Of a stretch of 50,567 bases of DNA, positions 5,630 through 42,904 are shown piece after piece (positions within the stretch are counted from its first letter, which is position 1; every line of letters starts with the position of its first letter). The stretch lies in IMG/VR virus record IMGVR_UViG_3300006790_000025, positions 1 through 50,567 of that record. The stretch is one strand, 5' to 3'. The position numbers and the translations under genes were made by a program. The DNA comes from a virus. Below the pieces are notes generated by a model. It was given only the letters and a program-made list of their open reading frames with translations. It searched no databases and was not told the origin of the DNA.

Positions 5630-8600
5630 ATGGCTGTAGAACGAAATCCTTTTCAGGTTCTGCCCGGAGGTCTGGAGAATCAACCAGACGGTGCTGATCT
5701 TGAGCTAGAGATAGAATTAGAGGATGGTGATCTAGAAGGAGTAACACTCAGCGAAGACATGGCTGCTCTTACTCTTGTTGAACAAGATCACTATGCAAAC
5801 TTAGCTGACTATCTAGACAAGGAAGACCTCGATGAGATTGGCGGTATGGTTTCGGAGCAATTCGAAGCAGATCGTGATTCTCGTGGTGAATGGGAAAGCA
5901 CGTTTGAACGTGGTCTCGATCTTCTTGGTATCAAGCTTCAAGAGACAACTGAACCTTTTGAAGGAGCGTGTACTGCAGTTTCTCCGTTGATTATTGAATC
6001 AGCAATTAAGTTTCAAAGTAAAGCTTCTATTGAATTGTTTCCTCCCGGCGGTCCAGTTCGTACACAGATTGTAGGGTCTGCTACTCCTGATAAGGAAGCA
6101 CAGTCTACTCGTGTACAACAATTTATGAACTATCAGCTTACGGATCAAATCAGCGAGTACTTCGATGAATTTGAACGTATGCTCTTTCACCTTCCCTTAG
6201 TAGGCTCCGCATTTAAAAAGATTTACTATGATCCAAACTTAGAACGCCCATGTTCTGAGTTTGTACCTGTAGACCAGTTTTACGTGTCTTATCATGCACC
6301 TGATCTCAGAAGGGCAGATCGTTACACACATGTAATTTATAGATCACCCAACGAACTGCGAAAAGAGATTTCAGTTGGCATGTATCGAGACATTGATCTT
6401 CCTCAAGCATCTGTCCCTGATCCGTCAATGCTTGGTCAGAAGATCGACTCTCTGATGGGTCTGGCTCCTTCAGAAGATTATGATCAACAATATGTTCTTC
6501 TTGAGCAACATTGCTATCTAAATCTTCCAGAGCCGTTTAATGATCCTGATGAAGTTGCTTACCCTTATATTGTCACTGTAGAGGAAAGTAGCGGACAAGT
6601 TCTAGCTATACGCCGTAATTTTAATAAAGATGATATAAGACGTGAGCGTGAGACGTACTTTGCTCACTATAAATTTGTTCCGGGCTTTGGCTTTTATGGT
6701 CTTGGCTTGGTACATTTACTGGGCAATCTCACTATGTCAGCCACTGCTGCTCTTCGTAGCTTGGTTGATGCGGGTCAGTTTTCTAATCTTCCGGGCGGTT
6801 TCAAAGCTCGTGGTGTTCGTGTTGTAGGTGGAAATGATCCCATCTCTCCGGGCGAGTTTCGTGAAGTTGAATCAACTGGAATGGATTTGCAGAAGTCTAT
6901 TGTACCTTTACCGTACAAAGAACCTTCTCAAGTTCTATTTCAAATGCTTGGCTTTCTTACTGCTGCAGGTCAGAAGTTTGCTGATACTACGGATCAAATT
7001 GTTGCTGACGCTACAAACTATGGTCCTGTTGGTACAACAATGGCTCTGCTTGAAGCGGGTGCAAAGTTTTTCAGTGCGATACACAAAAGACTTCATCATA
7101 GTCAACGTGATGAGTTTCGTATTCTTTCTAGATTAAACTATGAGTTTCTTCCAGATGCTTATCCATATGAAATACCTAATATCGATTCCAGTATCTTTAA
7201 GTCTGATTTCGATGGTCGCGTTGATGTTATTCCTGTTTCAGACCCTAATATTCCTTCTGCTGCTCATCGCTTGGCAATGGCACAAATGGTTCTGCAATTG
7301 TCGAGCCAAGCTCCTCCGGGTATGTATGACATCAGGCAGGTTCACCTAAGTATTCTTTCTGCTTCTAATATTCAAAATCCAGAAAGATACATGCCACCTC
7401 CTCCGCAACCTAAATCAAATGATCCAATTACGGATATTCAGATTGCTTCACAAGGACAGCCAATTAAGGCATTTCCAGAGCAAGATCATAAAGCACATAT
7501 TGCAGTGAAGTCTGCTTTTATTGAAGACCCCACTCTTGGTCAAAATCCAATGATGCAGTCTGTTGTTCCTCTTCTTCAAGCAAACATTCGTGAGCATATG
7601 GTTATGCAGTATGCGGCTCAGATGGCTGGCTTGATGGACATGGGTTCAAAACAGCTTGAACAAACAGGCGCAGAGGTCACTCCAGAAATCATAGGTGAGC
7701 TTACGTCAGCCGCTGCTCAAGAGGTGCTACAAGCAAATCAAGGCGGTGCAGCAGGTGTTAAAAATCTTGAACAACAAAGCATGGAACTTGAGCGTATGTC
7801 TCTTGACATTAAACGCGAAGGTTTACAGATTGAAGCAACAAAAGATGCTGCAGAGCTTTCACTTAAAAACCGTGAGCTTGGTCTAAAAGAAAAAGAAATA
7901 TCTTTACGTGCTGTCTCAAAGATGAGCGACAAAGAAGATAAAGAAGTAGATCGTCGTGTTCGTGCGTTAAAAGATGCTGCAACAATAAATGAAAAACGTA
8001 ATAATAGTTTACGAGATCAAGAAACAAAGATGGCAATTGAAGCAATTCGTGCAATGTTAAAAGAGCGTGAATTGTTTATGAAAGAAAGACAAGAAAGCGT
8101 AAACTTAGCAAAAGGCGGTGTTGCTGACTTAGATAGCATGAAACAAAAGCTTATGAATGTTGCTGACTTAGATAGTATAAAAGAAAAAATTATGAATGCT
8201 GCTGATTTAGATAGTTTACAACAACTCATGAATAGCGTAGACTTAGCAATAGGCGGCACACCAAAACAACAACTTATGAATCTTGCTGATTTAGATAATT
8301 TAAATCTTCCAGATGAATATAATTATTCTTCAGGCCCAGCTACTTCTTATCCAACAGGAGACAAAGTAAGAGAAATTGCATCTAAGTTTGATATTCCTCT
8401 TACTAGTGTGCTACAAGAAGTTGACAATCAAAGAAAAGATGAAATTCTGGGTAAACAAGCTGAAGAAGTTATGAAAGAACTAAATGTTCCTGAAAGACTT
8501 CGACCAGAAGAAACTATAGAAGAAGATATTAAAATTGCTATTCGTCCAAGCGAGAAGCTAGAGAATACAGCTATTTCTTTGAGTGAAATGGAAACAAGTT

Positions 8601-9199
8601 CTCTTCCTTTAACTGAAGCTGATAAAATGTTAATGAGTCAAATGGAAGCAAGTTCTGCTCCTTCAACTCAAACTGATGATATGCTCAGTAGATTTATGAG
8701 AGGAGAACTGTCTAAGAAACCGGAAGAGCTATTTACATCAGCTAAAAAAGATGAAAGTAAAGACATGAAAAGTTCATTAGAATTAGTAAAAGAGTTTGAA
8801 GGTTTTGAACCAGAAGTTTATGAAGATGTTGTAGGAGTCAAAACTGTAGGATATGGAACGGCTGCTACATCTGGAAGAGATATTCCTGAAAGTGTTACTG
8901 AAGAAGAAGCTTCTGCAATGGCTCAAGAAGATTTGGATAAAATAGAACAACAACTTGACGATATAATTAAAGTTGATATTACTCCAAATATGAAAGAAGC
9001 TCTAAAGTCTCTAGCCTACAATGTAGGTATTGGTGCGATTAAAAAGAGCAAGGGCTTGAAGAAATTAAACGAAGGTGATATTGAAGGTGCGGCTGAAGAG
9101 TTCTTTGATGAAGACAAAGGATTTGTAAAGGCAGGTGGTGAAAAACTTGCTGGACTAGTTCGTCGCCGTGCTGCAGAACGAGACGTATTTTTAAGTTAG
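5630..9199 (+). CDS. Portal protein fused to a T4-type lysozyme (GH24) domain
   Basis: At 1189 aa this is far longer than a P22-type portal (about 725). Residues 1-620 look like a P22-like portal: it directly follows terminase, with GGMVSEQFEADRDSRGEWES and a YGPVGTTMALLEAGAKFFSA crown-type segment. Residues about 690-825 are long charged helices (coiled coil). Residues 831-897 are ADLDS-type repeats ending in LADLDNLNLPDEY, followed by a polar linker. Residues about 1046-1189 are a GH24 lysozyme with E1057 (KEFEGFEP), D1066 (VYEDVVG) and T1072 (KTVGYGT). Their spacing of 9 and 6 equals the E11/D20/T26 spacing in T4 lysozyme, so the domain looks active. The portal is the DNA-entry ring; the lysozyme could act on peptidoglycan at ejection or be released for lysis (inference). 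Confidence 0.88.
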   Translation: MAVERNPFQVLPGGLENQPDGADLELEIELEDGDLEGVTLSEDMAALTLVEQDHYANLADYLDKEDLDEIGGMVSEQFEADRDSRGEWESTFERGLDLLGIKLQETTEPFEGACTAVSPLIIESAIKFQSKASIELFPPGGPVRTQIVGSATPDKEAQSTRVQQFMNYQLTDQISEYFDEFERMLFHLPLVGSAFKKIYYDPNLERPCSEFVPVDQFYVSYHAPDLRRADRYTHVIYRSPNELRKEISVGMYRDIDLPQASVPDPSMLGQKIDSLMGLAPSEDYDQQYVLLEQHCYLNLPEPFNDPDEVAYPYIVTVEESSGQVLAIRRNFNKDDIRRERETYFAHYKFVPGFGFYGLGLVHLLGNLTMSATAALRSLVDAGQFSNLPGGFKARGVRVVGGNDPISPGEFREVESTGMDLQKSIVPLPYKEPSQVLFQMLGFLTAAGQKFADTTDQIVADATNYGPVGTTMALLEAGAKFFSAIHKRLHHSQRDEFRILSRLNYEFLPDAYPYEIPNIDSSIFKSDFDGRVDVIPVSDPNIPSAAHRLAMAQMVLQLSSQAPPGMYDIRQVHLSILSASNIQNPERYMPPPPQPKSNDPITDIQIASQGQPIKAFPEQDHKAHIAVKSAFIEDPTLGQNPMMQSVVPLLQANIREHMVMQYAAQMAGLMDMGSKQLEQTGAEVTPEIIGELTSAAAQEVLQANQGGAAGVKNLEQQSMELERMSLDIKREGLQIEATKDAAELSLKNRELGLKEKEISLRAVSKMSDKEDKEVDRRVRALKDAATINEKRNNSLRDQETKMAIEAIRAMLKERELFMKERQESVNLAKGGVADLDSMKQKLMNVADLDSIKEKIMNAADLDSLQQLMNSVDLAIGGTPKQQLMNLADLDNLNLPDEYNYSSGPATSYPTGDKVREIASKFDIPLTSVLQEVDNQRKDEILGKQAEEVMKELNVPERLRPEETIEEDIKIAIRPSEKLENTAISLSEMETSSLPLTEADKMLMSQMEASSAPSTQTDDMLSRFMRGELSKKPEELFTSAKKDESKDMKSSLELVKEFEGFEPEVYEDVVGVKTVGYGTAATSGRDIPESVTEEEASAMAQEDLDKIEQQLDDIIKVDITPNMKEALKSLAYNVGIGAIKKSKGLKKLNEGDIEGAAEEFFDEDKGFVKAGGEKLAGLVRRRAAERDVFLS
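8120..8320 (+). repeat. ADLDS peptide repeats in the portal linker
   Basis: Residues 831-897 of the portal contain VADLDSMKQKLMN, VADLDSIKEKIMN, AADLDSLQQLMN, a degenerate VDLAIGG unit and LADLDNLNLPDEY, spaced about 12-20 residues. The coding DNA repeats too (GCTGACTTAGATAG). This looks like recent internal duplication, with amphipathic helices likely. Confidence 0.8.
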
Positions 9200-14244: not shown

Positions 14245-15036
14245 ATGGCTATAATTCCATCTGTAACTGTTAGAGGTAATAACGAACCTTTTGAGTTGCA
14301 AGTAGCTCGTAATCAAATTTTAGAGCATAAATCAATATTTAAATTTGGTTTTAATCCTAATGTAGATGATGCACTTGAAACTGTATGGGCGCAGGGTGGT
14401 CTGTATTCTTATCTGTCTTCAGCTACTACTCTTTATATTTCCAGTTCTTCTACCGCAGATGATGCGGCGGGGACGGGAGCAAGAACTGCTACGGTTTCAG
14501 GTCTGGATGCAGATTGGAATGAAGTATCTGTAACAGTAGACTTAGATGGACAGAACGGTGTGCAGTTAGGAGATGCTTCTAACTGGATACGAGTTTTCAG
14601 GGTTACTGTTGATACAGCAGGAAGTGGTGGGCAAAATGCAGGTGTCCTATATGTGGGAGACGAAGCTTCTCCTACATTGGGTGTACCTACAAACAAGTAC
14701 GCTACAATAGCTATTGGAGACAATCAGACTCTTATGGCTTTGTGGACTGTCCCAGCAGAATACACAGCCTATCTATATCAGACAGATATCACGGTAGCTA
14801 CGACACAGAACAATAAGTACTGCACTGGTAGTATTGTGGCAAGACCTGATGGTGGGGTCTTTCAGGTTAAAGATAAGTTTTCAAAAGGTGAAAGCAGTCA
14901 TATCCAAGCGTATCAAATACCTTTAAAGTTTGAGGAAAAGACTGATATAGAAGTTAGGGCTATAGGCGATAGTTCTGGTGCTAATATAGCAATATCAGGT
15001 GGATTAGATATTATTTATATTAAAAACTCGGATTAA
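14245..15036 (+). CDS. Virion structural protein, beta-rich (263 aa)
   Basis: It starts one base after the previous stop. The sequence is mostly beta, with GARTATVSGLDADWNEVSVT, YTAYLYQTDITVATTQNNKY and a C-terminal DIEVRAIGDSSGANIAISGG. This architecture is shared with a structural protein of T4-like cyanophages that I recall only as virion-associated. No enzyme motif is visible. A surface or capsid-associated role is likely from context. Confidence 0.65.
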   Translation: MAIIPSVTVRGNNEPFELQVARNQILEHKSIFKFGFNPNVDDALETVWAQGGLYSYLSSATTLYISSSSTADDAAGTGARTATVSGLDADWNEVSVTVDLDGQNGVQLGDASNWIRVFRVTVDTAGSGGQNAGVLYVGDEASPTLGVPTNKYATIAIGDNQTLMALWTVPAEYTAYLYQTDITVATTQNNKYCTGSIVARPDGGVFQVKDKFSKGESSHIQAYQIPLKFEEKTDIEVRAIGDSSGANIAISGGLDIIYIKNSD

Positions 15037-15330
15037 ATGATGGCTAAGTCAAAAAGAAAAGGAATGAAGGGAATGACCATTAAAGGTGGTCATAAACGTC
15101 CTACGAAATCAGGTGCTGGTCTTACTAAAAAGGGAGTAGCAAAGTATCGTAAACAGAATCCCGGTTCTAAATTACAAACAGCAGTTACAGAAAAGAAGCC
15201 AAGTAAAGCAAGAGCAGCTAGACGTAAAAGTTATTGTGCTAGGTCAGCAGGGCAGATGAAGAAGTTTCCAAAAGCCGCTAAAGACCCTAACAGTCGTTTA
15301 CGTCAAGCCCGTAAGCGGTGGAGATGTTGA
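15037..15330 (+). CDS. DUF6321-like basic protein (97 aa)
   Basis: The segments GAGLTKKGVAKYRKQNPGSK, LQTAVTEKKPSKARAARRKS-type text and YCARSAGQMKKFP, ending RKRWRC, match the DUF6321 pattern (from memory), with its conserved SxCAR and terminal Cys. Very basic. The gene begins ATGATG directly after the previous stop; the second ATG at 15040 is equally possible. It is coupled to the next gene by a TGATG overlap. Confidence 0.75.
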   Translation: MMAKSKRKGMKGMTIKGGHKRPTKSGAGLTKKGVAKYRKQNPGSKLQTAVTEKKPSKARAARRKSYCARSAGQMKKFPKAAKDPNSRLRQARKRWRC

Positions 15331-16001
15331 TGAGTGTTTCAACTACACAAGATTTTAACTTAGATATTGATGAAGTAATTCAAGAAGCTTTTGAGCACTT
15401 GGGCGGTCCTGCTAATACGGGTCAAGACAGTAGATCAGCAAGACGTTCTCTTAATATGCTTCTAACAGATTGGTCTAATCGAGGTATTCTTCTTTGGACA
15501 ACTGCTTTTACAAATCAAACAATGACTGAGGGAACAAGTGTCTATACTTTAGATAGTTCTATTGTAGGAGTTACTGAAGCAGTAATTCGAAGAGACGATA
15601 ATGATATTGAGATGGAACGTCTCTCAATGGAAGAATATTTAAAGATTCCAAATAAAACTTCTAAAGGTCGTCCTATTCAAATAGCTACACATCGTAGACG
15701 TGAGAATGTTGATATTCATGTCTGGCCTACGCCTGAGAATAGTACAGACATTGTAAGAATGTGGACAATTAATCGAACTTTTGATTCTAATAATTCTGCC
15801 GACAATCCAGATGTTCCTTATCGTTTTCTTCCTTGTCTAGTAAGCGGCCTTGCTTATTATCTTTCTCTCAAACGTCCGGGTATTAGTGCTCAACGTAGTG
15901 AGATATTGAAAGTACATTACATGGAACAATTAAACGAGGCGATGGAAGAAGATAGAGAACGTGTGTCATTTTATAGTGTTCCTAGTCTTAGGAGAATTTA
16001 A
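15330..16001 (+). CDS. Head-tail connector protein (P22 gp4-like candidate)
   Basis: I use the ATG at 15330 (TGATG overlap) because GGAG at 15320-15323 is six bases upstream; a GTG at 15318 lies too near it. Residues from about 10 (NLDIDEVIQEAFEHLGGPAN, then SARRSLNMLLTDWSNRGILL) match the connector type that plugs below the portal in P22-like podoviruses. The pattern VWPTPENSTDIVRMWTINRT is typical of its beta part. It would close the head and bind the tail hub. Confidence 0.75.
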   Translation: MSVSTTQDFNLDIDEVIQEAFEHLGGPANTGQDSRSARRSLNMLLTDWSNRGILLWTTAFTNQTMTEGTSVYTLDSSIVGVTEAVIRRDDNDIEMERLSMEEYLKIPNKTSKGRPIQIATHRRRENVDIHVWPTPENSTDIVRMWTINRTFDSNNSADNPDVPYRFLPCLVSGLAYYLSLKRPGISAQRSEILKVHYMEQLNEAMEEDRERVSFYSVPSLRRI

Positions 16002-22035: not shown

Positions 22036-22695
22036 ATGTCTTTAACTTACACAACTCTTCAAAGTCAAATAAAAGACATTTTAGAAAATGATGGTACAGA
22101 ATTTTCTGATGCTGTTCCTTCTTTTATTGAACGGGGTGAACTTAGATTATTTAGAGAAATTGATTCTTTAGGATTAAATAAATATGCTAATACAAATTTT
22201 AATGTAGGTGATCCTTTTTTAAGCAAGCCAGAAAGCACTGCTATTATTCGTTCTGTTAATTACAGAACTGCTGAAGGAAATCGTATTCAACTTTTACAAG
22301 CTACTAATGAGTATGTTAATGATTATTGGCCTGTAAGAGCTTCTGTGGGATCACCTCGCTATTATTCTAATTTTGGTTTTGATACTATATTAGTAGCTCC
22401 TGCTCCTTCCTCTGCAAGTACAGTCGAAATGGAATATATTGCACAACCGACTCCTCTTGCTGATTCTAATCAAACAAATTATTTTACTGACTATACTTCT
22501 AATGCTTTGCTCTATGCTTGTCTAATTGAAGCATGTTATTATATGAAGAATCCTTCAGCAGTTTCTTATTGGGAAAGACGCTACAAAGAAGAGGTTAATG
22601 CTTTAAATAATGAAGCTAGACGTACTCGACGTGATGACATGATTGTTGCTGCTAATCCATCAGGAGGCGAAGACAATCTAATTAGTGGGACTTAA
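22036..22695 (+). CDS. Phage adaptor/connector protein (SU10 adaptor-like)
   Basis: The protein is 219 aa. Helical N-terminus (TLQSQIKDILENDGTEFSDA, then FIERGELRLFREID) and a C-terminal helical block (ALLYACLIEACYYMKNPSAV, then YWERRYKEEVNALNNEARR) match the adaptor family under short-tail hubs (SU10-type, from memory). It would form a ring between head connector and tail tube or nozzle. Confidence 0.72.
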   Translation: MSLTYTTLQSQIKDILENDGTEFSDAVPSFIERGELRLFREIDSLGLNKYANTNFNVGDPFLSKPESTAIIRSVNYRTAEGNRIQLLQATNEYVNDYWPVRASVGSPRYYSNFGFDTILVAPAPSSASTVEMEYIAQPTPLADSNQTNYFTDYTSNALLYACLIEACYYMKNPSAVSYWERRYKEEVNALNNEARRTRRDDMIVAANPSGGEDNLISGT

Positions 22696-30085: not shown

Positions 30086-33000
30086 ATGGCACAGCTTCTT
30101 GACCTTGCTGATCTGGGAAGGCTAGAACTGCCTGATGAGTATACAAGCCAAGATACTCAGGATGCTGTTATTCTAGCTCAGTTAAACGATCCTAACTTTA
30201 GTCCTATACAGGAGGAACTAAACGCCATTGATCGTCTTTTAGGTAAGATGAAAGAAGGTCAAGTTTCTCCTCCTAAGTTTACTCCCCTTGAAGAAATAGA
30301 AAGAACTCCTGATAGAGGTTATCTTGGAGAAGCTCTTGCTGCTATTCGTTCTGGTGGTCAAGGTCTTTTTGGATTGGCCCTAACTGGTATGGAGCGTTTT
30401 GCAGAACGTGCTGGTCTTGATCCTACAGGAGATGACGAAGGCTGGCTTCGTATGGCAGGAGATGCTCTACAACAGGGTGCTGATGAAATAAAAGCAACTC
30501 CCGGTAAAGAAGAGTATTTTAAGTGGTTTCAAGCTTTTGGTTCTCTTTTAGGTTTTACTGTACCAGCCATTGTTGCTGCTCCGATTAGCGGAGGTGCTTC
30601 TTTCGGAGTTGCTGCTACTCTTGGAATTGGGGCTGGAGCGGGTGAAGCATATAACCGTGCAGAAGAAGCAGGTGCTACTGAAGAACAGTTAACTCAATCT
30701 ACATTGCTTGGAGGTGGTTTAGGAGGATTCGAAAGTATTCTTCCAACAAAAATAGCTGGCAGAGTTCGGAAAGCGTTTGGAGGAGACAGTTTCTTACAGA
30801 AAACAATAGAAAATAATATAAGAGAAGCTGGAAAAAAGAGTTTAACTCGTGGTGATCTTGCTCGTAATCTAGGTATTGAACAAGCACCATTTAAAGCTTT
30901 TGGTCTGAAGATTGCAAAGGCTACAGGATTAGAAGGATCGCAAGAAGCTGTTGCTGCAATTGGTCAGAATGCAATTGAAAGATATATCTATAATCCAGAT
31001 GCGGATTTAGTTAACGTTGATGTCTTAGAAGAAGGCTTATATGGCGGTAGTGCTGGTGGTGCTTTGACTGGCATTATCGAAAGCTTTAGTCTTAGAAAGT
31101 CACGCCGTGTTCGTAAAGCATTTGATGACTACACAAACTCTGAAGAATATCAAGGAGTCATCAGTCAGGTAAGTAAAGACGTAAATACTCTTGAGTCTGC
31201 AGAAACTGCACAACAAGAAGCATTAGCAAACGGTGATGAAGCTTTAGCAACTCGACTGCAAGAAGTTATAGATAATGCAGAAGCTCGTGTACGAAGAGCA
31301 AATGAGCTTGTTACTACGTCAGTCATGGAGAATGTTTATGGCGGTCCTGAAGTTTTAGCTTATCTAGCTGAACAAAAACTTGAAGACGGTTCTCCAATGT
31401 ATGATGCAGATCAGCTTCAAAAGCTAACCTCTCAACAACTGTCTGAAATATACAAGCGTCACGTTACAAATCCCATGACAAAGTATGAAAGGGATTCTCG
31501 TGATTGGTTGTCTTCTCTTGATAATCCAGTAACAAATGAAGCTTACACTTTTGAAGAGATCGAAGCTGTTTATGATCGTTTCGGTCCTCAAGGCGTAGTT
31601 CAACTAGATAACTTTATTACACAAGCATATGAGGATGTAGATAAAGGAAAGTCTAGTAAGGCAGAATTATATGAACGTGTTCGCCTACGAACAGATCATA
31701 ATTTTTTTGATAGTAATCAAAATGAAGTTATTGCTTCTATAGAAAATGATAGCAGTCTTGATTCTGAAGCAAAGATAAAATTACGTCATTCTTTTTTTGA
31801 GCATATTAAGAATGCAAGAGAGGCTGGAATATCTAATAAAGAAATTATGAAACTTCTGCAGCCTTTAGAAAAGAGTATAGCTACTTTCGCAGACGCAATA
31901 GGAAAGTCTCATACTGAATTTCGTATGAGTCTGCTTCGAAATAAAATTAAAACTAAGATAAAAGTAGAGCCAGCACCAGAACCAGAGGCAGCGCCTGAAG
32001 CAGAGGCAGCGCCTGAAGCAGAGGCAGAAGTAGAACCAGAAGCAGAAGCAGAAGCAGAGCCAGAAGCAGAGCCAGAAGCAGAGCCTGAAGCAGAACCAGA
32101 AGCAGAGGCTGTAACAGAACCAGAACCAGAGGCTGTAACAGAACCAGAACCAGAAGCAGAAGTAGAAGAAGCGTTTCCTAAACAAGATGCTCCTCCCAGT
32201 GCTGATCCTATAGTTGATAATCCTGCTCCTGTAGATGAGATAACTCCAGACGTTATTGAAGAAGCGGAAAATACTCCAAAAGAAGGTGCTCCTGACGTAG
32301 AAAGCGTTGCTTCTCCTCCTCCTCCGACTAAACCTACTCCACAACAAATAGAAACTTATAACGAAGAGCAACGTCTTGCAGAAATAGAGGAGCTTAAAAA
32401 ACAACAAGAGGCTCTTGACAGTGAAATAACATCTGTTGAAAAGCTGCTTGAGAAAGAGAATGTTCGTCTCGGAAATCCAAATTTAACAGAAGAGCAATTT
32501 AATTTATATTTAGAAAAAGCAGAAAAATTAGAACAAAGATTAGAGCCTCTTAAACAAAGACAGCAAGATATTGTTCAAAGGCTCATAGATTTAAATGATC
32601 CTGAAACGTCTCTTCAGGATATTAAAACTTTAGAAAATAAAGTTATCATGGATCAAAAAATAGCAGAAGAAGGTTTGTTTTCTGCTGAGTCTTTAAAAAG
32701 ATTTGAGAATGCTCTTAAAAGAATGTTTGGCCCAAAAGTAGGAGATAGGGCTGAAGACATAGTAATTTTATTTGGAGAAGAAGCAAATAAAGTAACTGCA
32801 GAAACCACTCTAGGTCATGCTAGATCACGTTTCGTTCCTCCAGATTCAAGTGCGGTAAAAAGTCCTTATGGTTACGTAGAAGACATGGGGCCTATAGGTA
32901 AAGTTAAACAAGTTCCTTATGAAATTGCCATCAGAACTGATGTACTTCCTTCTGAAAAGCACGGCTTTCCAAAAAGTTATACTGATTTTCAAAGACTAAT

Positions 33001-36000
33001 GGGGCTTACTTATCACGAAGGATTTCATGCAGCAAAACGTCTTGTTCTTACTCAAGATCAACAAGCACTTCTTGATAGAGTTATTACTCAGAAATTTGCA
33101 GAAAAAAATGGTATATCAAGAGAATGGTTTGATCTGTATCCTGAAAATGAAAAACTAGAAGAAGCACAAGCTCAGATATATGCTTTATGGGCTGCAGGTG
33201 TTCCGATCAAAGGAATGAATGCTCCAGTAAGAAAGCAACTTAAAACACTAAAAGACTTCTTCGAAGCTTTTTCAAGCTGGGCAAGAGGAGAAGGTTTTAT
33301 TAAGACTATTACTGATCCCGATTCTACTCCTGAAATAGAAACTATTAAGAAAATGTTTACTGATCTTGATAGCGGAGAGTTAGCTAGACAGGCAGGACGT
33401 TTGGATAATGAAGCTGCAGCAAAGTATGCAGGTGTTAATGCTGCTCCTAATTATGATGGATTGTTGAATGCTTCTATGAACCAGCCTCCAAAGTACGGCG
33501 GTATTACAGATGTATTTTCTAATCCATTTGCTAATCAATCACTTCGTGATCTTGGATGGATAGGCAGGTTAATATCTCATCCATCTGATCTAGCTCAGAA
33601 GAATCCACTGTTTAAAAGTTTCTATAATGCTCTTCAAAAACGTATTCAAATTCGTAACAGCATTAAAGGTGCTGCAGTAAAACAAGGTGCTGACGCACTA
33701 CGTAACTTGAATGCAGAACAGAGACAACTTACTTCTGTTGTTATTCAATTAGCAAATAATGCACAAGTTGAACCTACGATAGACATGGAAACAGGAACTG
33801 TTAGTGTAACCATATCTTTAGATAAAATGGGTGAATTAGAAACTACTTACGGTAGCCTAGATAAAATGTTTTCTAAAATTGGTCTTGATCCAAATGTTTT
33901 TGAACGCACTACTTCTATAGATAAGGACTTTGCTAAGTTAGGAATTGATCTTCCAGATTCTTATTCTTTTACATTATCTAATCAACCAGAAGTTGCTCAA
34001 GCAGTTGCAGGTGTTCGTTCAGCAAGTAATCATTTAAGTGATAATCTTTTTACATCTATTCTTCACTCATATCTAAATGGAAAGTTCATAAAAGAGAGTG
34101 GTCTAAGCGATGTTATTAGAACAGTAGATGAAGCTGGACAACCTGTAGAGTATTCAAGTGTTCTTGCTGATTTAAATAAATTTATGGATGTACAGAATAA
34201 TCCATTTTTAACTAGGAATGAAGACGGTGAAGTTGTACTTACAGACGACTTTGCAAGTGCTTCTATTGAAGAAAAGATGAAGGCCTTTCCTGCTTTGAAG
34301 GAAGAGTATTTAGGCAAAAAAGACACACCCGCAAAACTAAAGGAAGTTTTAAGGTTAGTGCAAGGTCTGACAGCAAGTCGTATAGATGGTTATTTTCCAA
34401 ACTATCGATATGGAGATCATGGTATTATTGTTAGAGATGGAGAAGGTAAAGTTATTTACTTTGAAACAATTCCGTCTAGTTTCTTAGATAGGTTTGGTTC
34501 GAGAAAACAACAACGAATAAATGAAGTTAAAGAACAAATACAACAAGAGTATCCGGGTCAAGAAGTTGTAGATTTTAAACTTGAATATGATAAGAAAAAG
34601 CAAAGCTTCGCAGGTATGAAACCTGAAGAGCAAGCAGCTTTGTTTGAGTCAATGAATATTCTTGAAGAGATAGCTTTAAGAAGAGCAGGTTCTCCTTCTA
34701 AAAAGGATGTAGAAGAGTTAATTGAAGAAATTCAAAGTGGGCTGTTTGCAAAAAGAATAGAAAAATTAATTCAACCAAGACAAAACATACCCGGATATAT
34801 AAATGAACGTAATAACGATGGAAGTTATTTACTTGATTCATTTATTCGGGCTGTTGATACAACATCAAATACTGCTTCTTCTTTATTTACAGAACCAGAA
34901 TTGTTTGGAAGTCTTGATCGATTAAAGGATGCCAAAGATCAACCAAGATATTACAAAAGAGCAGAAGAGATTTATAACTACATTAACACACCGAACAATG
35001 AAGCACCTATAGCTCGTGCTTTTGCTTTTCACATGTTCTTAGGACTCAATGTATCTTCTGCTGTTGTCAACTTAACACAAACTTTTCAAGCCACCTATCC
35101 TGTTTTAGGAGCAATCACTGGTCTAGGAAGTTCAGGTGTCTATGTTGCTAAAGCTTTAAAAGACGCAGGTTCTTTATACGGAAAGCAGATTGGTTCTGGG
35201 AATACTACTTCTTTAGGTGAGTACGGCTTCTCTTTCTTTACATCAAAAACTGCTCCTGATGGAACGGTAACAGTTGAAGTCGATATGTCAAAGAAACCTG
35301 ATTCAATAACAGAGGATGAGTATAGGTACTTAGCTGAATTGTTCAGAACTGGTGTAATTCAACCAATTCAAAACATTGATCTAGGAGCATCGACCTTACA
35401 ACAGATGGACATCCGAGGGCCAGTACGTCCATTGCTTCATCTGTCTGGTTACGCTTTTGGTGTCGTTGAAAACACTAACCGTATCGCTGCAGCTTTAGCT
35501 TTTTATCGAGCAGCAAAAGACCCTAAGAATAGAAAAAACTTTGAAGCATATTTAGGAGGCACTCGCTTTGGAGAGCAAGATGTATCTCAACTAGACTCAG
35601 AAAAATTTGCTCAGTTAGCAGGTACAATGGGCGTTGAGAAAACACAGTTTTACATGGGACAAGAGAATCGACCAGCGATTATGCAGGGGCCAGTAATGAG
35701 CGTTGTGACGCAGTTTCAAAGTTTCCTGTATCAAATGGTAGGACTGTATGGAGATGCTTTCCTGAAGTCCTTAAACGGGCGTATGGCACAGGTTCCAGAA
35801 GCAGATAGGCCCGTTGTTCGTAAGATGGCTATGAAACAACTAGCTGCTATGACTTTATCTATGATGGCATTTGGCGGTGCTATGGGTCTTCCGTTTATGG
35901 AAAACCTAAAGGAGCTAATTAAATTCTTCACTGAGCAGTTTGGTGATCAGGTTGGCGAGGACTTTGAAGAGGAGCTTCGTGTTGTTCTTGGTGAGACAAT

Positions 36001-36748
36001 GGGCTACACCGCAACAGATGCTCTTCTTCGTGGTCTTCCTCGTATGCTAGGTGCAGATGTTTCGAGACGTACAGGTTACGGTGATGTTGTACCTCTTCGA
36101 CTTCTAATGGGAGGTGATCCTGTAGACTTTGCTGGACCTGCTGCATCTAGAGCATATGATATGTTAGCAGGAACAAAAGAGGCTTATGATAATGGTGATC
36201 TATTAGGAGCCGCTATTGGAGTGATGCCTATTGCAGCTAGAAATGCTTATGAAGGTCTCTATAAAGAGCCTGAAGTAGGAACCTTTACTGCACGAGGACA
36301 ACAGCTTCTTCCTGCTGGAACTCTCGACGCGACTGAAAGAATGATGAAATCAATTGGATTTACTCCTACTACAATATCTCGTGCTAGAGAAAGACGAGGA
36401 CTAGAAAATTATTTGTCTTATCGTTCTAAGAAAGGTAAAGATGTATACACAAATAGAATGGCTAAAAATCTAGGTGCATACATGGCTGCTTCTAAAAATG
36501 GAGATGGAAGGTCAGCGGCTCATTACCTACAAAAATACTATCAAGATTATCTTCATACAATGCAACATGATTTTGATAATATCATGACTCCATCTCGTAT
36601 GTACAGAATTAATCCACAAACTCCTTACAACAGAGCAATGAGAGCACTTGATCCCTTTGGATTTGGTACTGGTCCTCGTGTTCCAAAGGGTGTCAGGCCT
36701 GAACTATTTGAACGAGTTATGGGTGGTGCTGCTTACAGTAAAGGTTGA
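30086..36748 (+). CDS. Giant ejection/internal virion protein with HExxH motif (2220 aa)
   Basis: The largest gene of the window. Residues 7-19 (LADLGRLELPDEY) repeat a motif of the portal linker. Residues about 150-190 are hydrophobic Gly/Ala helices (FTVPAIVAAPISGGASFGVA), suited to crossing a membrane. Residues about 625-696 are a Pro-Glu-Ala repeat. A probable metallopeptidase-like domain has HEGFH at 977-981 with a possible third ligand in KLEEAQAQIYALW. The rest is mostly helical. Family precedent is the very large ejection proteins (T7 gp16 and marine counterparts with large polyvalent-protein domains). No lytic transglycosylase motif is obvious. The protease role is inferred from HExxH alone. 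Confidence 0.75.
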   Translation: MAQLLDLADLGRLELPDEYTSQDTQDAVILAQLNDPNFSPIQEELNAIDRLLGKMKEGQVSPPKFTPLEEIERTPDRGYLGEALAAIRSGGQGLFGLALTGMERFAERAGLDPTGDDEGWLRMAGDALQQGADEIKATPGKEEYFKWFQAFGSLLGFTVPAIVAAPISGGASFGVAATLGIGAGAGEAYNRAEEAGATEEQLTQSTLLGGGLGGFESILPTKIAGRVRKAFGGDSFLQKTIENNIREAGKKSLTRGDLARNLGIEQAPFKAFGLKIAKATGLEGSQEAVAAIGQNAIERYIYNPDADLVNVDVLEEGLYGGSAGGALTGIIESFSLRKSRRVRKAFDDYTNSEEYQGVISQVSKDVNTLESAETAQQEALANGDEALATRLQEVIDNAEARVRRANELVTTSVMENVYGGPEVLAYLAEQKLEDGSPMYDADQLQKLTSQQLSEIYKRHVTNPMTKYERDSRDWLSSLDNPVTNEAYTFEEIEAVYDRFGPQGVVQLDNFITQAYEDVDKGKSSKAELYERVRLRTDHNFFDSNQNEVIASIENDSSLDSEAKIKLRHSFFEHIKNAREAGISNKEIMKLLQPLEKSIATFADAIGKSHTEFRMSLLRNKIKTKIKVEPAPEPEAAPEAEAAPEAEAEVEPEAEAEAEPEAEPEAEPEAEPEAEAVTEPEPEAVTEPEPEAEVEEAFPKQDAPPSADPIVDNPAPVDEITPDVIEEAENTPKEGAPDVESVASPPPPTKPTPQQIETYNEEQRLAEIEELKKQQEALDSEITSVEKLLEKENVRLGNPNLTEEQFNLYLEKAEKLEQRLEPLKQRQQDIVQRLIDLNDPETSLQDIKTLENKVIMDQKIAEEGLFSAESLKRFENALKRMFGPKVGDRAEDIVILFGEEANKVTAETTLGHARSRFVPPDSSAVKSPYGYVEDMGPIGKVKQVPYEIAIRTDVLPSEKHGFPKSYTDFQRLMGLTYHEGFHAAKRLVLTQDQQALLDRVITQKFAEKNGISREWFDLYPENEKLEEAQAQIYALWAAGVPIKGMNAPVRKQLKTLKDFFEAFSSWARGEGFIKTITDPDSTPEIETIKKMFTDLDSGELARQAGRLDNEAAAKYAGVNAAPNYDGLLNASMNQPPKYGGITDVFSNPFANQSLRDLGWIGRLISHPSDLAQKNPLFKSFYNALQKRIQIRNSIKGAAVKQGADALRNLNAEQRQLTSVVIQLANNAQVEPTIDMETGTVSVTISLDKMGELETTYGSLDKMFSKIGLDPNVFERTTSIDKDFAKLGIDLPDSYSFTLSNQPEVAQAVAGVRSASNHLSDNLFTSILHSYLNGKFIKESGLSDVIRTVDEAGQPVEYSSVLADLNKFMDVQNNPFLTRNEDGEVVLTDDFASASIEEKMKAFPALKEEYLGKKDTPAKLKEVLRLVQGLTASRIDGYFPNYRYGDHGIIVRDGEGKVIYFETIPSSFLDRFGSRKQQRINEVKEQIQQEYPGQEVVDFKLEYDKKKQSFAGMKPEEQAALFESMNILEEIALRRAGSPSKKDVEELIEEIQSGLFAKRIEKLIQPRQNIPGYINERNNDGSYLLDSFIRAVDTTSNTASSLFTEPELFGSLDRLKDAKDQPRYYKRAEEIYNYINTPNNEAPIARAFAFHMFLGLNVSSAVVNLTQTFQATYPVLGAITGLGSSGVYVAKALKDAGSLYGKQIGSGNTTSLGEYGFSFFTSKTAPDGTVTVEVDMSKKPDSITEDEYRYLAELFRTGVIQPIQNIDLGASTLQQMDIRGPVRPLLHLSGYAFGVVENTNRIAAALAFYRAAKDPKNRKNFEAYLGGTRFGEQDVSQLDSEKFAQLAGTMGVEKTQFYMGQENRPAIMQGPVMSVVTQFQSFLYQMVGLYGDAFLKSLNGRMAQVPEADRPVVRKMAMKQLAAMTLSMMAFGGAMGLPFMENLKELIKFFTEQFGDQVGEDFEEELRVVLGETMGYTATDALLRGLPRMLGADVSRRTGYGDVVPLRLLMGGDPVDFAGPAASRAYDMLAGTKEAYDNGDLLGAAIGVMPIAARNAYEGLYKEPEVGTFTARGQQLLPAGTLDATERMMKSIGFTPTTISRARERRGLENYLSYRSKKGKDVYTNRMAKNLGAYMAASKNGDGRSAAHYLQKYYQDYLHTMQHDFDNIMTPSRMYRINPQTPYNRAMRALDPFGFGTGPRVPKGVRPELFERVMGGAAYSKG
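31960..32175 (+). repeat. Pro-Glu-Ala low-complexity repeat
   Basis: About 70 residues of PEAEA/EPEAE/AVTEPEPE units encoded by GAAGCAGAGCC-like repeats inside the giant ejection protein. Highly acidic and extended; likely a flexible spacer between the N-terminal and the HExxH halves. Length may vary by slippage. Confidence 0.9.
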
Positions 36749-36773
36749 CATTCTTATAATTTATTCCTATAAA
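36745..36773 (+). promoter_or_regulatory. Near-consensus sigma70 promoter for the glycan genes
   Basis: TTGACA (36745-36750, perfect) and TATAAA (36768-36773, 5/6) are exactly 17 bp apart. The -35 overlaps the stop codon of the giant ejection gene. It is the best promoter in the window and lies 38 bp before the ATG at 36811. Confidence 0.8.
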
Positions 36774-36810
36774 TAGTTTTCCCTACTATATTGGAATAAG
36801 TATATATAAG

Positions 36811-37611
36811 ATGGCTGAGACTGATTCTCATTTAGTTTATGTTGGCTATGACTCTCGTGAGCAAGCTGCCTATGATGTCTGCGAGTTCACTCTAAAAAGA
36901 CAAAACTCCTCTAATATTTCAATTCAAAAATTAGAACATCGTGAGCTACGTCAGCGTGGTAAGTTCTGGCGTAAGTGGCGTATTGATGAAGGTGGTCAGT
37001 ATTGGGATGAAGAGGATGGCAAACCTTTTTCAACTGAGTTTTCACACACTCGCTTTTTAGTTCCTCATCTAGCAATGAATGATCATGAAGAGAATGGTTG
37101 GGTTCTTTTCTGTGACTCTGACTTTTTGTTTAGAAAACCATTGTATAAGTTATTCGATCAAGTCGATGACAAGTACGCTGCGATGTGTGTTAAGTTTAAC
37201 TTCGAACCAAAAAATAGTAAAAAGATGGATGGAATGATACAGAGTTCTTATCCTAGAAAACTCTGGTCATCTTTTGTTTTGTGGAATGTAGGGCATCCAT
37301 CAAACAAACAGATACTTGATCCTCTTAAAACAAACACAGCAACAGGACGAGACCTGCATAACTTCTCGTGGCTTAAAGACGAAGAGATAGGAGGAATAGA
37401 TGAGTCATGGAATTATATTCCCGGCATCTCTCCAAACACTGAAACGTATCTACACAGTTTTAATGTAAATGCAATTCACTTTTCAGAGGGTGGTCCTTGG
37501 TTCAAAGAGTATGAGAATGTTCCATTTGCAAAAGATTGGAAAACCCAATATAAAAATGCTTTGCATAGTAAGTACCTAAGAGAGGCCTACCCTGATGACT
37601 TCGAAAAGTAA
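36811..37611 (+). CDS. GT-A fold glycosyltransferase-like protein (266 aa)
   Basis: The start HLVYVGYDSREQAAYDVCEF is a typical first strand of GT8-like glycosyltransferases. The metal/nucleotide-sugar DxD motif is FCDSDFLF at about residues 102-109. A later HFSEGGPW (about 229) is the type of C-terminal His motif of the fold. Soluble, no signal peptide. First gene after its own promoter, overlapping the next by 17 bp, so the pair is translated together. Substrate unknown; transfer of a sugar onto host surface glycans or virion proteins is the main possibility. Confidence 0.75.
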   Translation: MAETDSHLVYVGYDSREQAAYDVCEFTLKRQNSSNISIQKLEHRELRQRGKFWRKWRIDEGGQYWDEEDGKPFSTEFSHTRFLVPHLAMNDHEENGWVLFCDSDFLFRKPLYKLFDQVDDKYAAMCVKFNFEPKNSKKMDGMIQSSYPRKLWSSFVLWNVGHPSNKQILDPLKTNTATGRDLHNFSWLKDEEIGGIDESWNYIPGISPNTETYLHSFNVNAIHFSEGGPWFKEYENVPFAKDWKTQYKNALHSKYLREAYPDDFEK

Positions 37612-39919
37612 ACTAAGTATCATTAGCAGCTTTCATGTAAAAGACTGGGAGCTATATGCTAAGAACTTTGTAGATACTTTTATTGAGTATGTTGATAAAG
37701 ATATTGATCTTTATATGCATTATCATAATGGAATGCTTCCAGATAATGCTCCTAAAGCTGACAATGTAAGTTATGTATCTTTAGATAACGATGAAGACCT
37801 GTTAGACTTTAAAGCAATGAATGCTGAGTTCGATGGCAGAGATCAGCAGGGCGGCTACAATTATCGTATGGATGTAGTGAAGTTCTGTAATAAAGTTTTT
37901 GCTATTACAAATCAAGCATTCTCTATGGTAAGAGATACAGGATCACCTGATAACGGATATCTAATTTGGTTAGATGCTGATTCTGTTTTTCATAATAAGT
38001 TAGACTGGTCTGATCTTTCTCTGTACGCTATTCCTACAGTAGAAGCAGAATTAGTTCACTTAGGAAGAACAGCAATAGATTACAGTGAGACATCTTTTCT
38101 CTCCTTTAATCTAGATTCAAATCGTGCTCTAGAGTTTCTTCAAGACTTCAGAGGAATGTATACAAGTCATGAGGTCTTTGGATACAGAGAATGGCATGAT
38201 GGATTTGTCTTTACACGTCTAATGAATATTCATGAAGAGCATGGATTAGATGTTTATAATCTATCTTCAGAATGCCAAGACCTCTCAGCCTTTGCTTCAA
38301 CCGGATTGTCTAAGTTCATCGAACACAAGAAAGGAAACTTAAAGTACGACAAGGAAGCGAATGATGGAGCATTGCCTGTTGATACAGTAGCTATGGGTCC
38401 ACAAAGGTATGCGTATTTAAATACAATTATTGATTATTATGAGCGTAATAATATTCTTGAAGTAGGAACGTGGAATGGTGATCGCGCTATACAAATGGCA
38501 ACTGCGGCGTTTAATAAATCGAATGTTGTTCACTATACTGGTTTTGATCTTTTTGATTACGCTACAGAAGAAACGGATAAAGCAGAACTTAATACAAAGG
38601 CTCACCATACAAAAGAAGAAGTCACAAAGAAACTTACTGAGTTTGCAGAAAAAGTAAGAGAAGATGGAAAGTTTTTTACATTCTGTCTTTTTGCAGGAGA
38701 TTCTAAAGAAACTCTTAACCTTGTTCACAATCATGATTTCTGTAGCACTCATAACATTAAACCTAATTTTGCTTACATTGACGGTGGGCATAGCATCGCT
38801 ACTTGTTCTTCTGATTACCTTAAACTAAAACATATTCCTGTTGTTGTTATTGATGACTACTTTACTGCTGACTCCGAAGGTAAAGAAGTCGATCCAGAAA
38901 TGTGTGGAACAAATCACGTATACGATCATCTTGTTGATCCTGATTATCGAAAAGAAATTTTAAGATCGAATGATCGAGTACTAGGTGGAGGAATAACAAA
39001 CTTTGCTCTGGTTGTCTGTGATAAAAATCTTGACGATCCTCCTGAGATGCTCCTTGTTCCAACAGAAGACAGAACACCTATCAAGGTTCAACCGCACGAT
39101 TCTATGCCTGATGAGTATATTCAGGAAAGCATCACTGCAAATAAAAATAAGATGGATCGATGGATAAAGGAGACTGGTGCTCCTACTGATGAGAATATGA
39201 TTATTGTCTCTGCTGGCCCATCTTTGAAAAAGAATATGGATAAGCTAAAGGAGAAAATTAAAGAAAAGAATGCTTTAGTTGTCTGTGTTAAACATGCTCT
39301 TCCTATTCTATTGAAAGAAGGTATTACTCCTTGGGGCTGCATTGTTCTCGATCCTAGACCCATTGATGGAATGTCTACTCATGGAGTGAAACGCCGTGAT
39401 CTCTTTAAGAAGATTCCAAAAGAAACTAAATTTTTTATAGCGTCTATGACAGATGTTTCTGTCGTTGATTACTTATTGAGTAAGACGGATAACACATATG
39501 GATGGGATGCTTTCTCGCAAGCTATTCAACACTGGCCTCCTCTCAGAGATACTATGTTGATCACTGGTGGAACATGTGCGGCTACGAGAGCAGTCGGTTT
39601 ATTTCATGTACTAGGATTTAGAAACTTTGATCTCTTTGGATTTGATGGATGCATTGAGGGAGAGCCTGAAGATAAGACAGAGAAGTTAGAGTCGGGCAGT
39701 GCTAAATGGATCAAGGTTGGAATCGGAGACGAGGAAGAGAAGTTCTGGGTGACAGGAGAGCTTCTTGCTATGGCTCAAGATATTGAAGCTATGCTGGATA
39801 ATAAGACTATTGACATGACAATTGACATGCATTGTGGTGGGCTTGTTGCAGCTATCTGGAGAGATAGAGTTAAGAAAGGATATGTTCGACCACACTGGAA
39901 GGAAATATTGAATGTCTGA
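37595..39919 (+). CDS. Three-domain protein: GT-A glycosyltransferase, SAM methyltransferase, MAF/DUF115-like
   Basis: The protein is 774 aa with three recognisable parts. Residues about 1-260 are GT-A-like with WLDADSVF (DxD, about 126-133). Residues about 275-430 are a class I SAM methyltransferase of Methyltransf_24 type: ILEVGTWNGDRAIQM (motif I, about 287), YTGFDLFDYA, and FAYIDGGHSIATCSSDYLKL leading to VVVIDDYF. Residues about 535-774 match DUF115/MAF proteins (MIIVSAGPSLKKNMDKL; VKHALPILLKEGITPWGCIV; LFGFDGCIE), the domain of flagellin nonulosonate transferases. It overlaps the upstream glycosyltransferase and the downstream gene. Together they suggest synthesis and attachment of a methylated sugar; the acceptor is unknown. 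Confidence 0.8.
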   Translation: MTSKSKLSIISSFHVKDWELYAKNFVDTFIEYVDKDIDLYMHYHNGMLPDNAPKADNVSYVSLDNDEDLLDFKAMNAEFDGRDQQGGYNYRMDVVKFCNKVFAITNQAFSMVRDTGSPDNGYLIWLDADSVFHNKLDWSDLSLYAIPTVEAELVHLGRTAIDYSETSFLSFNLDSNRALEFLQDFRGMYTSHEVFGYREWHDGFVFTRLMNIHEEHGLDVYNLSSECQDLSAFASTGLSKFIEHKKGNLKYDKEANDGALPVDTVAMGPQRYAYLNTIIDYYERNNILEVGTWNGDRAIQMATAAFNKSNVVHYTGFDLFDYATEETDKAELNTKAHHTKEEVTKKLTEFAEKVREDGKFFTFCLFAGDSKETLNLVHNHDFCSTHNIKPNFAYIDGGHSIATCSSDYLKLKHIPVVVIDDYFTADSEGKEVDPEMCGTNHVYDHLVDPDYRKEILRSNDRVLGGGITNFALVVCDKNLDDPPEMLLVPTEDRTPIKVQPHDSMPDEYIQESITANKNKMDRWIKETGAPTDENMIIVSAGPSLKKNMDKLKEKIKEKNALVVCVKHALPILLKEGITPWGCIVLDPRPIDGMSTHGVKRRDLFKKIPKETKFFIASMTDVSVVDYLLSKTDNTYGWDAFSQAIQHWPPLRDTMLITGGTCAATRAVGLFHVLGFRNFDLFGFDGCIEGEPEDKTEKLESGSAKWIKVGIGDEEEKFWVTGELLAMAQDIEAMLDNKTIDMTIDMHCGGLVAAIWRDRVKKGYVRPHWKEILNV

Positions 39920-40223
39920 TGACGATAATAGTAATATTGTAGATTTTCCTATTAACTTTACCATCTCTCCTGTTCAAAATAAAAACATATCAGAACAAAA
40001 AACTAAAGACGCACATGCAAGTTTAGTCTCTTCTATGGAAGAGATATTTTCATCTATCAAAGAAAATGATAAAATGGTTGGTGGAGTCTTTCTTGCGTTT
40101 GAAGAAGATGGTGCAGTCGCTGATTGGTTTGCAGGATCAATAGCTGTTAGTGCTGTCTACCTGCAACTAGATAGAATTAAAAATGATCTGATATCTCTCT
40201 TAGATAATAACGAAGCGGAGTAG
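39912..40223 (+). CDS. Hypothetical protein at the end of the glycan operon (103 aa)
   Basis: The start overlaps the upstream stop by eight bases with a weak GGAA site. Residues about 46-65 read DKMVGGVFLAFEEDGAVADW, and the C-terminal half is helical (LQLDRIKNDLISLLDNN). No family recognised. Expression is presumably coupled to the three-domain enzyme. Confidence 0.7.
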   Translation: MSDDDNSNIVDFPINFTISPVQNKNISEQKTKDAHASLVSSMEEIFSSIKENDKMVGGVFLAFEEDGAVADWFAGSIAVSAVYLQLDRIKNDLISLLDNNEAE

Positions 40224-40227
40224 TATG

Positions 40228-40242
40228 ACTCCGTAAAGGAGT
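40228..40242 (+). promoter_or_regulatory. Hairpin that holds a ribosome-binding site
   Basis: ACTCC (40228-40232) pairs with GGAGT (40238-40242) around GTAAA. The right arm is the Shine-Dalgarno of the gene at 40250, so folding would hide it. It may delay or tune expression of the membrane/lysis genes that follow (inference). Confidence 0.5.
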
Positions 40243-41396: not shown

Positions 41397-41624
41397 ATGT
41401 CAAACAGTGAAAATATTGCAGATAAAGAAGCATATCAATCTAACAGACGAAGAATGTGTTGGGTTGTTCTTACTCTGATAACAGCTATGACTATGGCAGT
41501 TTTAATCTGGCCTGAGAGATACGAGAAAGCTCTTGTTATGGAGATGGCTTATCTTGCTTTATGTGGTCTTGTGGCCTCATACTTTGGTGCAACCGCTTTT
41601 CAAAATAAGATTGGCAAGAAATGA
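41397..41624 (+). CDS. Two-TM holin-like protein (75 aa)
   Basis: ATG 41397 has GGAG at 41387-41390. Two membrane helices at about 22-40 (WVVLTLITAMTMAVLIW) and 50-68 (MAYLALCGLVASYFGATAF) with charged ends fit a small holin, probably with both ends in the cytoplasm. It overlaps the next gene, a three-TM-type holin, by four bases. The pair could be holin plus partner or antiholin. Confidence 0.65.
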   Translation: MSNSENIADKEAYQSNRRRMCWVVLTLITAMTMAVLIWPERYEKALVMEMAYLALCGLVASYFGATAFQNKIGKK

Positions 41625-42028
41625 TACAAGCACTCTTACCTAGTATTCTTCCTGCTGTAACAGATATTGTCGGAAGATTTCTGCCTGAAGACAAAGAAGC
41701 TAAAGCAAAAGCTCAACGAGAAATAGAGTCGCAACTAGCAGCACACCTCGCTAAGATTGATGTGGGTCAGCTAGAAATAAACAAGACTGAGGCGGCTCAT
41801 CGTTCTATTTGGGTGAGCGGTTGGAGACCGTTTATCGGCTGGTCGTGCGGAGTTGCACTCGCATGGACGTATGTTATCACTCCTATTCTTAATTTTATTC
41901 TTGCACAAACAGGACACTTAATGGATTTACCTGCTATGGATATGGGAGAGATGATGCCTGTCTTGATGGGAATGTTGGGATTGGGAGGCCTCAGAACCTT
42001 CGAAAAATTTAAAGGCGTTGCAAAATAA
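41621..42028 (+). CDS. GTA-type holin (holin_3TM family candidate)
   Basis: The protein is 135 aa. The segment EINKTEAAHRSIWVSGWRPF followed by IGWSCGVALAWTYVITPILN is the family signature (gene-transfer-agent holin, PF11351 from memory), with further hydrophobic helices at about 80-105 and 112-128 (MMPVLMGMLGLGG). It would open the inner membrane for lysis. No endolysin gene lies beside it. Confidence 0.78.
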   Translation: MIQALLPSILPAVTDIVGRFLPEDKEAKAKAQREIESQLAAHLAKIDVGQLEINKTEAAHRSIWVSGWRPFIGWSCGVALAWTYVITPILNFILAQTGHLMDLPAMDMGEMMPVLMGMLGLGGLRTFEKFKGVAK

Positions 42029-42105: not shown

Positions 42106-42372
42106 ATGCATATCAATTATTTTTCAAAAACACTACCATATGACTACGCTTCTTATACTTCTTCTTTTGCAAAGGAGATGGAGAAATCTTTTAAGATGTC
42201 GGAGCGTGTGGCAAACAAATACAAAGAGGCAGCAATCGAGCAAAAGCTCGAAGTTCTTCGATATCAACGTGAGAAGTTAGACGAACAGATTATGAATTAT
42301 GAAGTTCAACTGGCTGATGTATCAATGGTTGATATCAGCGAAACGAAGGACCATAAGCCCACAGAGCAATAG
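42106..42372 (+). CDS. Hypothetical helical protein (88 aa)
   Basis: GAGG precedes the ATG. After an aromatic N-terminus (YFSKTLPYDYASYTSSF) the protein is a charged helix/coiled coil (ERVANKYKEAAIEQKLEVLR, then KLDEQIMNYEVQL). It probably has its own promoter. Its last 38 bases overlap the end of the minus-strand oxygenase gene. No family recognised. Confidence 0.68.
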   Translation: MHINYFSKTLPYDYASYTSSFAKEMEKSFKMSERVANKYKEAAIEQKLEVLRYQREKLDEQIMNYEVQLADVSMVDISETKDHKPTEQ

Positions 42373-42904
42373 AATGCTTTTCATTTCGTGTTACATGTTT
42401 AACACGATGCCAGAGATAAGAGGGGAAGACAATAATGCTTCCTCTCTTTTTTAATTCAGGAACATCTATAATTCTTTTGTTGTAAGACTTTGAAGGCTTG
42501 CCCCAGCTAAACTGAAACTCACCGCCTTCATAGTCATCATTGAGAGTAACAACTAAAGAGAGCTTACGAACTTTCTCAGGAATAATCTCACGTTCCAGAG
42601 TATCTATATGCCAACCGTAGTGGTTTCCCTCATAGTAAGTTGAGAACTGCATCACCTCGCATCCTGTGATATCGAAGTTCCAACCTGCTTCCTGATTTGC
42701 TAAGATCATACACTTGAAGAATATATCGGATAAGTCTGCATCATCTATCCATGATAGCTTGCTTTTTCTAATATCGTCATCAATTACTTTATCTTCTGTC
42801 GTAGCATCTTCCGATATAAAATTACGAGAAAGCAAGATAAGATCATCACAGAACTTATTCGACAGGGCTTCCTCGCTGCTCCAATAATTTTGATAGCTAA
42901 TCAT
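42335..42904 (-). CDS. 2-oxoglutarate/Fe(II)-dependent oxygenase
   Basis: The protein is 189 aa, of the prolyl-4-hydroxylase/PKHD type. Iron ligands are H99-x-D101 (YGWHIDT) and probably H166 (YLWHRVKHVT). The 2OG-binding basic residue position reads NEKHSIALW, with Lys instead of the usual Arg (GxRxSLVxW). The jelly-roll strands LSLVVTLNDDYEGGEFQF and GSIIVFPS are typical. It follows the ribonucleotide reductase by eight bases. Substrate unknown (protein or nucleic-acid hydroxylation are the known family roles). Its 3' end overlaps the converging gene. Confidence 0.85.
   Translation of the reverse strand: MISYQNYWSSEEALSNKFCDDLILLSRNFISEDATTEDKVIDDDIRKSKLSWIDDADLSDIFFKCMILANQEAGWNFDITGCEVMQFSTYYEGNHYGWHIDTLEREIIPEKVRKLSLVVTLNDDYEGGEFQFSWGKPSKSYNKRIIDVPELKKRGSIIVFPSYLWHRVKHVTRNEKHSIALWAYGPSFR

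Follow-up and report, generated by a model that had tools for sequence, protein, structure and literature searches.

What would a phage do with a glycosyltransferase, a methyltransferase and a domain related to bacterial Maf proteins in one polypeptide, and on which molecule would these activities act? The question is raised by an IMG/VR virus record of 50,567 bases, all of which was analyzed (the window), in which a gene for a stand-alone glycosyltransferase (GT1) is followed by a gene for such a fusion protein; the features of this cassette and its surroundings are listed in Table 1. The terminase and portal proteins encoded in the window, compared over their aligned portions, share about 39-44% identity with those of marine phages such as Pelagibacter phage HTVC023P and Roseobacter phages CRP-901/902, with a lower value of 33% for the Roseobacter terminase match, and the window also encodes an endonuclease I, a family A DNA polymerase and a DnaB-like helicase domain.

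Table 1. Features of the putative glycan-modifying cassette and its flanks (positions in the window).
Feature	Position	Strand	Basis and remarks
2220-aa protein, gene directly upstream	30086..36748	+	Annotation of a Pseudomonas phage relative: "structural protein"
Sigma70-like promoter TTGACA-N17-TATAAA	36745..36773	+	Sequence; kept before GT1 in relatives, about tenfold enriched
GT1, stand-alone GT-A-type glycosyltransferase (DSD motif), phrog_28018	36811..37611	+	266 aa
GT2-MT-Maf-like fusion	37595..39919	+	774 aa
GT2 domain, residues 1-258 of the fusion	37595..38368	+	Alignment, fold match (residues 5-256), residue conservation
Methyltransf_24 match, residues 288-412	38456..38830	+	Pfam; SAM motif I, D396, D420/D421
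PF01973 (MptE-like/Maf_flag10) match, residues 529-688	39179..39658	+	Pfam
103-aa cassette-linked protein	39912..40223	+	Start overlaps stop of fusion gene; 64 cassette loci
GTA-type holin, three transmembrane segments	41621..42028	+	PF11351, E 9e-20

The sequence-only reading of the fusion as a glycosyltransferase joined to a methyltransferase and a DUF115/Maf domain was borne out by Pfam, by conserved residues and by an AlphaFold model; searched domain by domain, the methyltransferase part (when excised) and the Maf-like part were recognized by Pfam and the glycosyltransferase part by its fold. The PF01973 match is clear (E 4e-20 and 72.7 bits, where 34.6 bits is the cut-off), while the Methyltransf_24 cut-off of 26.3 bits was exceeded by the domain once excised (26.7 bits) but not by the whole protein (22.6 bits); a relative (L027) matches the same family at 43.1 bits in its whole protein. 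Motif I of the methyltransferase (ILEVGTWNG, residues 287-295) is where it had been placed, and the DGGHS and IDDY motifs, previously put at about 391-415, are at residues 396-400 and 419-422. The N-terminal 258 residues have no Pfam match; they contain a DxD motif at 127-129 (LDAD, residues 126-129) and HxKG at 244-247, and stand-alone relatives of this GT2 domain are encoded in phages (L006, L007) and on many viral contigs, with distant matches in a plasmid search in Rhizobium only. Catalytic residues are not lost throughout the family, as the metal-site residues D396, D420 and D421 are intact in 53 of 61 distinct methyltransferase-bearing sequences (altered in the other 8) and a DxD-type motif is present in 82 of 84 distinct sequences.

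The AlphaFold model, built from an alignment of 46 relatives, had a mean pLDDT of 85 and a pTM of 0.45, and replaced a model from four close relatives alone with a pLDDT of 41; because the pTM is low, the arrangement of the domains is not fixed by the model. GT2 is a confident GT-A fold, of which residues 5-256 match PBCV-1 A64R, glycogenin and BoGT6a, tied in Z score (2p72, A64R: Z 14.5, 179 residues, 3.0 Å). A64R, a glycosyltransferase acting in capsid glycosylation, shares its fold with the GT2 domain, as do other viral GT-A enzymes, but it modifies the capsid of an algal virus and its sequence identity to GT2 is low (11-12%). The methyltransferase part matches the O-methyltransferases COMT, MycF and CalS11 (Z 14-15). 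The best structural match overall is the Maf protein PseD (5MU5; Z 19.1, 345 residues over model residues 268-756, rmsd 14.8 Å), in an alignment that spans the methyltransferase and the Maf-like domain in a different relative orientation, and a profile including bacterial Mafs matches 5MU5 at 1e-21.

Regarding the relationship to Maf, both proteins have the PF01973 fold with a Rossmann-type domain directly before it, but in the phage fusion this domain is a canonical SAM methyltransferase and a GT-A domain is added. For the N-terminal domain of Maf, a degenerate Rossmann fold weakly similar to methyltransferases has been described (PMC11339370). Descent of that domain from the phage methyltransferase at the sequence level was considered, given the same order and the structural alignment, but is not claimed, as no profile homology was found between the phage methyltransferase and the N-terminal regions of bacterial Mafs (hhalign probability 0.4%). 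The Maf N-terminal domain family PF20157 had no match in the fusion at E<=1; it matches the epsilonproteobacterial Mafs L100 and L110, and two clostridial Mafs that were scanned were also without a match. The fusion scored 40.4 bits with NCBIfam NF050051 against a cut-off of 670, a strict value since a clostridial Maf reaches just 114. With PF20157 undetected and the NF050051 score far below the cut-off, the phage fusion is not a true Maf and is not filed as one. The proposed likeness to domains that attach nonulosonates to flagellin holds for the fold and, distantly, for the sequence, whereas other features that define Maf are missing and a CMP-sugar synthetase (PF02348) was not found in the window or in 13 related phage records.

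The Maf-like domain could alternatively be a binding or scaffold domain for a nucleotide or pterin-like ligand, organizing the glycosyltransferase and the methyltransferase and having no transferase activity itself. PF01973 includes the archaeal 6-hydroxymethylpterin diphosphokinases, and the last third of the model fits the MptE-type enzyme of M. jannaschii (HPPK, 8SD5) well (Z 15.4, 200 residues, 3.6 Å); in addition, some family members deviate from the GPSL motif of the phosphate loop. However, the archaeal protein is a single-domain pterin enzyme, and the phage domain has invariant KH, DPR, STHG and TGELLA motifs of its own. Residues KH566-567, DPR586-588, GGT658-660 and R665 are present in 84 of 84 distinct sequences and STHG in 83 of them, which goes beyond what a scaffold would lead one to expect, and the domain stays when the methyltransferase is deleted; a mere scaffold is considered improbable.

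The phage Maf-like domain is encoded on at least 566 IMG/VR contigs, many of them presumably near copies of each other. The search for the whole chain recovered the same architecture: among the best 80 of these at least 566 loci (truncated ORFs included), 50 encode GT2-MT-Maf and 25 encode GT2-Maf without the methyltransferase, the rest being truncated, and GT1 is directly upstream of the fusion in nearly all complete loci of this set. Full-length relatives of close similarity were rare, and a profile-guided scan revealed many fused ones at 39-45% identity; GT1 and the fusion occur as a pair in lineages that share 39-75% identity in the fusion protein. By contrast, the Maf-like domain had no match at E 1e-3 in 50,697 deposited phage records, and the cassette is not annotated in CRP-901 or HTVC023P, the isolates with related terminase and portal. 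Bacterial relatives are ordinary Mafs without glycosyltransferase or methyltransferase parts, as found in a scan with two short peptide patterns which fused bacterial versions could escape. Regarding the earlier statement that no phage enzyme with this domain order had been described, a literature search for phage Maf, DUF115 or MptE returned nothing relevant and no paper was found, but uncultured phages commonly have this architecture, and UniProt contains an entry of almost the same length (A0A6J7X5Q0, uncultured Caudovirales phage), which apparently has the same architecture, judged from a Foldseek alignment (774 columns, 31% identical) and not from a domain scan. Each domain is known by itself; what seems not to have been described in the literature searched is their combination in phages, how widely it occurs and that the methyltransferase was lost more than once.

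A phylogeny of 76 Maf-like domains shows, on well supported branches, at least two losses (or gains) of the methyltransferase; this part is deleted in two clades and is optional in the fusion. As core residues of the glycosyltransferase and Maf-like domains are near-invariant and the methyltransferase is lost or degenerate in places, sugar transfer and the Maf-like step are the conserved business of the cassette and methylation is accessory. In a large methyltransferase-less clade a 302-aa gene lies between the GT2-Maf gene and the homolog of the 103-aa gene (L186:4815-5723, L201:4812-5720); that it encodes a separate methyltransferase was considered and rejected, there being no Pfam match, and by eye the protein looks like a GT-B transferase reduced to its C-terminal half. 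The GT1 protein of locus L186 touches PF01501 (GT8) with a score below the cut-off.

With respect to gene organization, the cassette had been described as a two-enzyme unit behind the best sigma70 promoter of the window. The promoter (TTGACA at 36745-36750, a 17 bp spacer and TATAAA at 36768-36773) was missed in a first scan that accepts only T as the final base; scored with a simple weight matrix, it comes third among the sites of the window, both higher ones being inside long ORFs, so it is the best intergenic site but not the best overall. The TTGACA-N17 box is also found upstream of GT1 in loci L002, L003, L015 and L016, and among 72 distinct regions upstream of GT1, which are related by descent and do not represent independent events, 51% scored at least 10, compared with 4.5% of random stretches from the same loci. 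Because of this conservation in relatives the promoter was counted as real, and the claim that the cassette has a promoter of its own was upheld. The two enzymes are encoded by ORFs that share 17 bases, and for the enzymes the two-member description is right, but a third small gene is coupled to them. Homologs of this 103-aa gene are present in 64 cassette loci (the window and its own copies included), directly adjacent in 36, so that the gene adjoins the cassette in many phages or sits one gene further downstream; its product had no match in the 50,697 phage records and belongs to no Pfam family. A hairpin at 40215-40234 was rejected as a terminator, as it has no T-run on the + strand.

Among 61 viral cassette loci with sufficient flanking sequence, near copies included, 52 have a gene for a GTA-type holin with three transmembrane segments less than 3 kb downstream of the cassette and on its strand. 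The gene directly upstream in the window probably encodes an internal virion or ejection protein, and in L002, L003, L015 and L016 the cassette is immediately preceded by genes for C-terminal relatives of this 2220-aa protein; relatives in deposited phages cover only its C-terminal third. The protein also has a Glu/Ala/Pro repeat tract near residues 630-690 and an HEGFH motif. In locus L046 the modules of the cassette are separate genes located on both sides of the scaffold and major capsid genes.

No membrane-spanning or signal segment was found in the cassette enzymes, and the GtrA flippase of phage gtr serotype-conversion operons (PF04138) was absent from 14 phage records, some of them fragments, in a search in which the controls were detected. 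With neither a membrane segment nor a CMP-sugar synthetase or GtrA, soluble enzymes, host-made donors and a cytoplasmic acceptor fit best. Regarding donor, acceptor, timing and benefit, we infer, tentatively and at somewhat less than even confidence, that the cassette builds a glycan in the cytoplasm from host donors and that its target is most likely a phage structural protein. GT1 and the fusion would make and finish a short glycan from activated sugars made by the host, in which GT1 and GT2, with their GT-A fold and metal-binding DxD, would add sugars; the Maf-like domain may bind a negatively charged donor (a nonulosonate- or Kdo-like acidic sugar activated with CMP is plausible) and pass it straight to a protein or onto the glycan being built; and the metal-dependent methyltransferase, where intact, would cap a sugar by O-methylation. 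The cassette, with a host-type promoter of its own and a position next to the holin gene that would close the late region, is most likely expressed late, and a structural protein could be glycosylated in the cytoplasm before or during assembly, in the way that Maf modifies flagellin. That the substrates of Maf are flagellin subunits is, with the late position next to the holin, the reason why a virion protein is put first as acceptor; the same position and the unfused genes around the capsid gene in L046 slightly favor virion proteins over the host surface. That these proteins constitute a widespread family of Maf-like protein O-glycosyltransferases of marine phages, in which GT1 and GT2-(MT)-Maf place an acidic, sometimes O-methylated glycan on virion proteins, is a more specific proposal and is regarded as less likely than not. 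Against a virion target, the promoter found in about half of the lineages resembles that of a moron and could mean early expression, the cassette adjoins ribonucleotide reductase genes in other lineages (L017-L044), and Maf-specific partner domains are missing from the fusion.

Modification of the host surface is the main alternative: by altering or capping a glycan there, the cassette would keep other phages, or the progeny of the same phage, from attaching to infected cells or debris. A host-type promoter is consistent with this, the holin neighborhood would suit protection of the progeny at release, and clusters of glycosyltransferase, methyltransferase and sulfotransferase genes in related phages look like surface-glycan sets; relatives of the glycosyltransferases in other phages cluster with FkbM methyltransferases and a heptosyltransferase-like gene, and such clusters could equally serve host glycans. 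Klebsiella O7 O-antigens are terminated by multi-module proteins of glycosyltransferase and methyltransferase (PMC11231755). Like the phage fusion, O7 ORF6 and the WbdD-type glycosyltransferase/kinase/methyltransferase terminators join sugar transfer to methylation at the chain end (PMC11231755), but the fusion has no kinase or coiled-coil ruler, its methyltransferase and glycosyltransferase folds are different, and those terminators have no Maf-like domain. The missing flippase, the absence of membrane-spanning segments and of a link to a lipid carrier, and a methyltransferase cap that is dispensable argue against a surface role, which is regarded as possible rather than probable and as not far behind the virion reading.

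DNA glycosylation occurs in phages, and the enzymes could in principle hypermodify phage DNA against restriction. A 2OG-Fe(II) oxygenase gene at 42335-42904 (- strand, at the end of the convergent replication region) would be in keeping with this; however, its product matches 2OG-FeII_Oxy_3 (prolyl-hydroxylase-type) and not TET/JBP, the cassette glycosyltransferases had no match to known DNA glucosyltransferases in the searches made, and we know of no precedent for a Maf-like domain acting on DNA. This explanation is considered very improbable.

If glycosylation of a virion protein is correct, uncultured marine phages would have a conserved cassette for glycan editing, mostly at a fixed place next to lysis genes, and the Maf/MptE fold would gain a branch in phages. 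The cassette also offers a natural experiment on methylation, because methyltransferase-free and methyltransferase-degenerate versions exist beside intact ones.

Regarding other genes of the window, a phrog_8198 protein (14245-15036, + strand), relatives of which adjoin the cassette in L002, L028/L044 and L177, was dropped as a candidate acceptor, being present in just 3 of 16 cassette records. A 1189-aa protein (5630-9199, + strand), for which no match covering 80% was found among the 50,697 phage records, combines a portal (phrog_1216, residues 161-604) with a C-terminal phage lysozyme (PF00959, residues 1054-1183, E 5e-34). Two genes of the SU10 adaptor family are located at 15318-16001 and 22036-22695 (+ strand).
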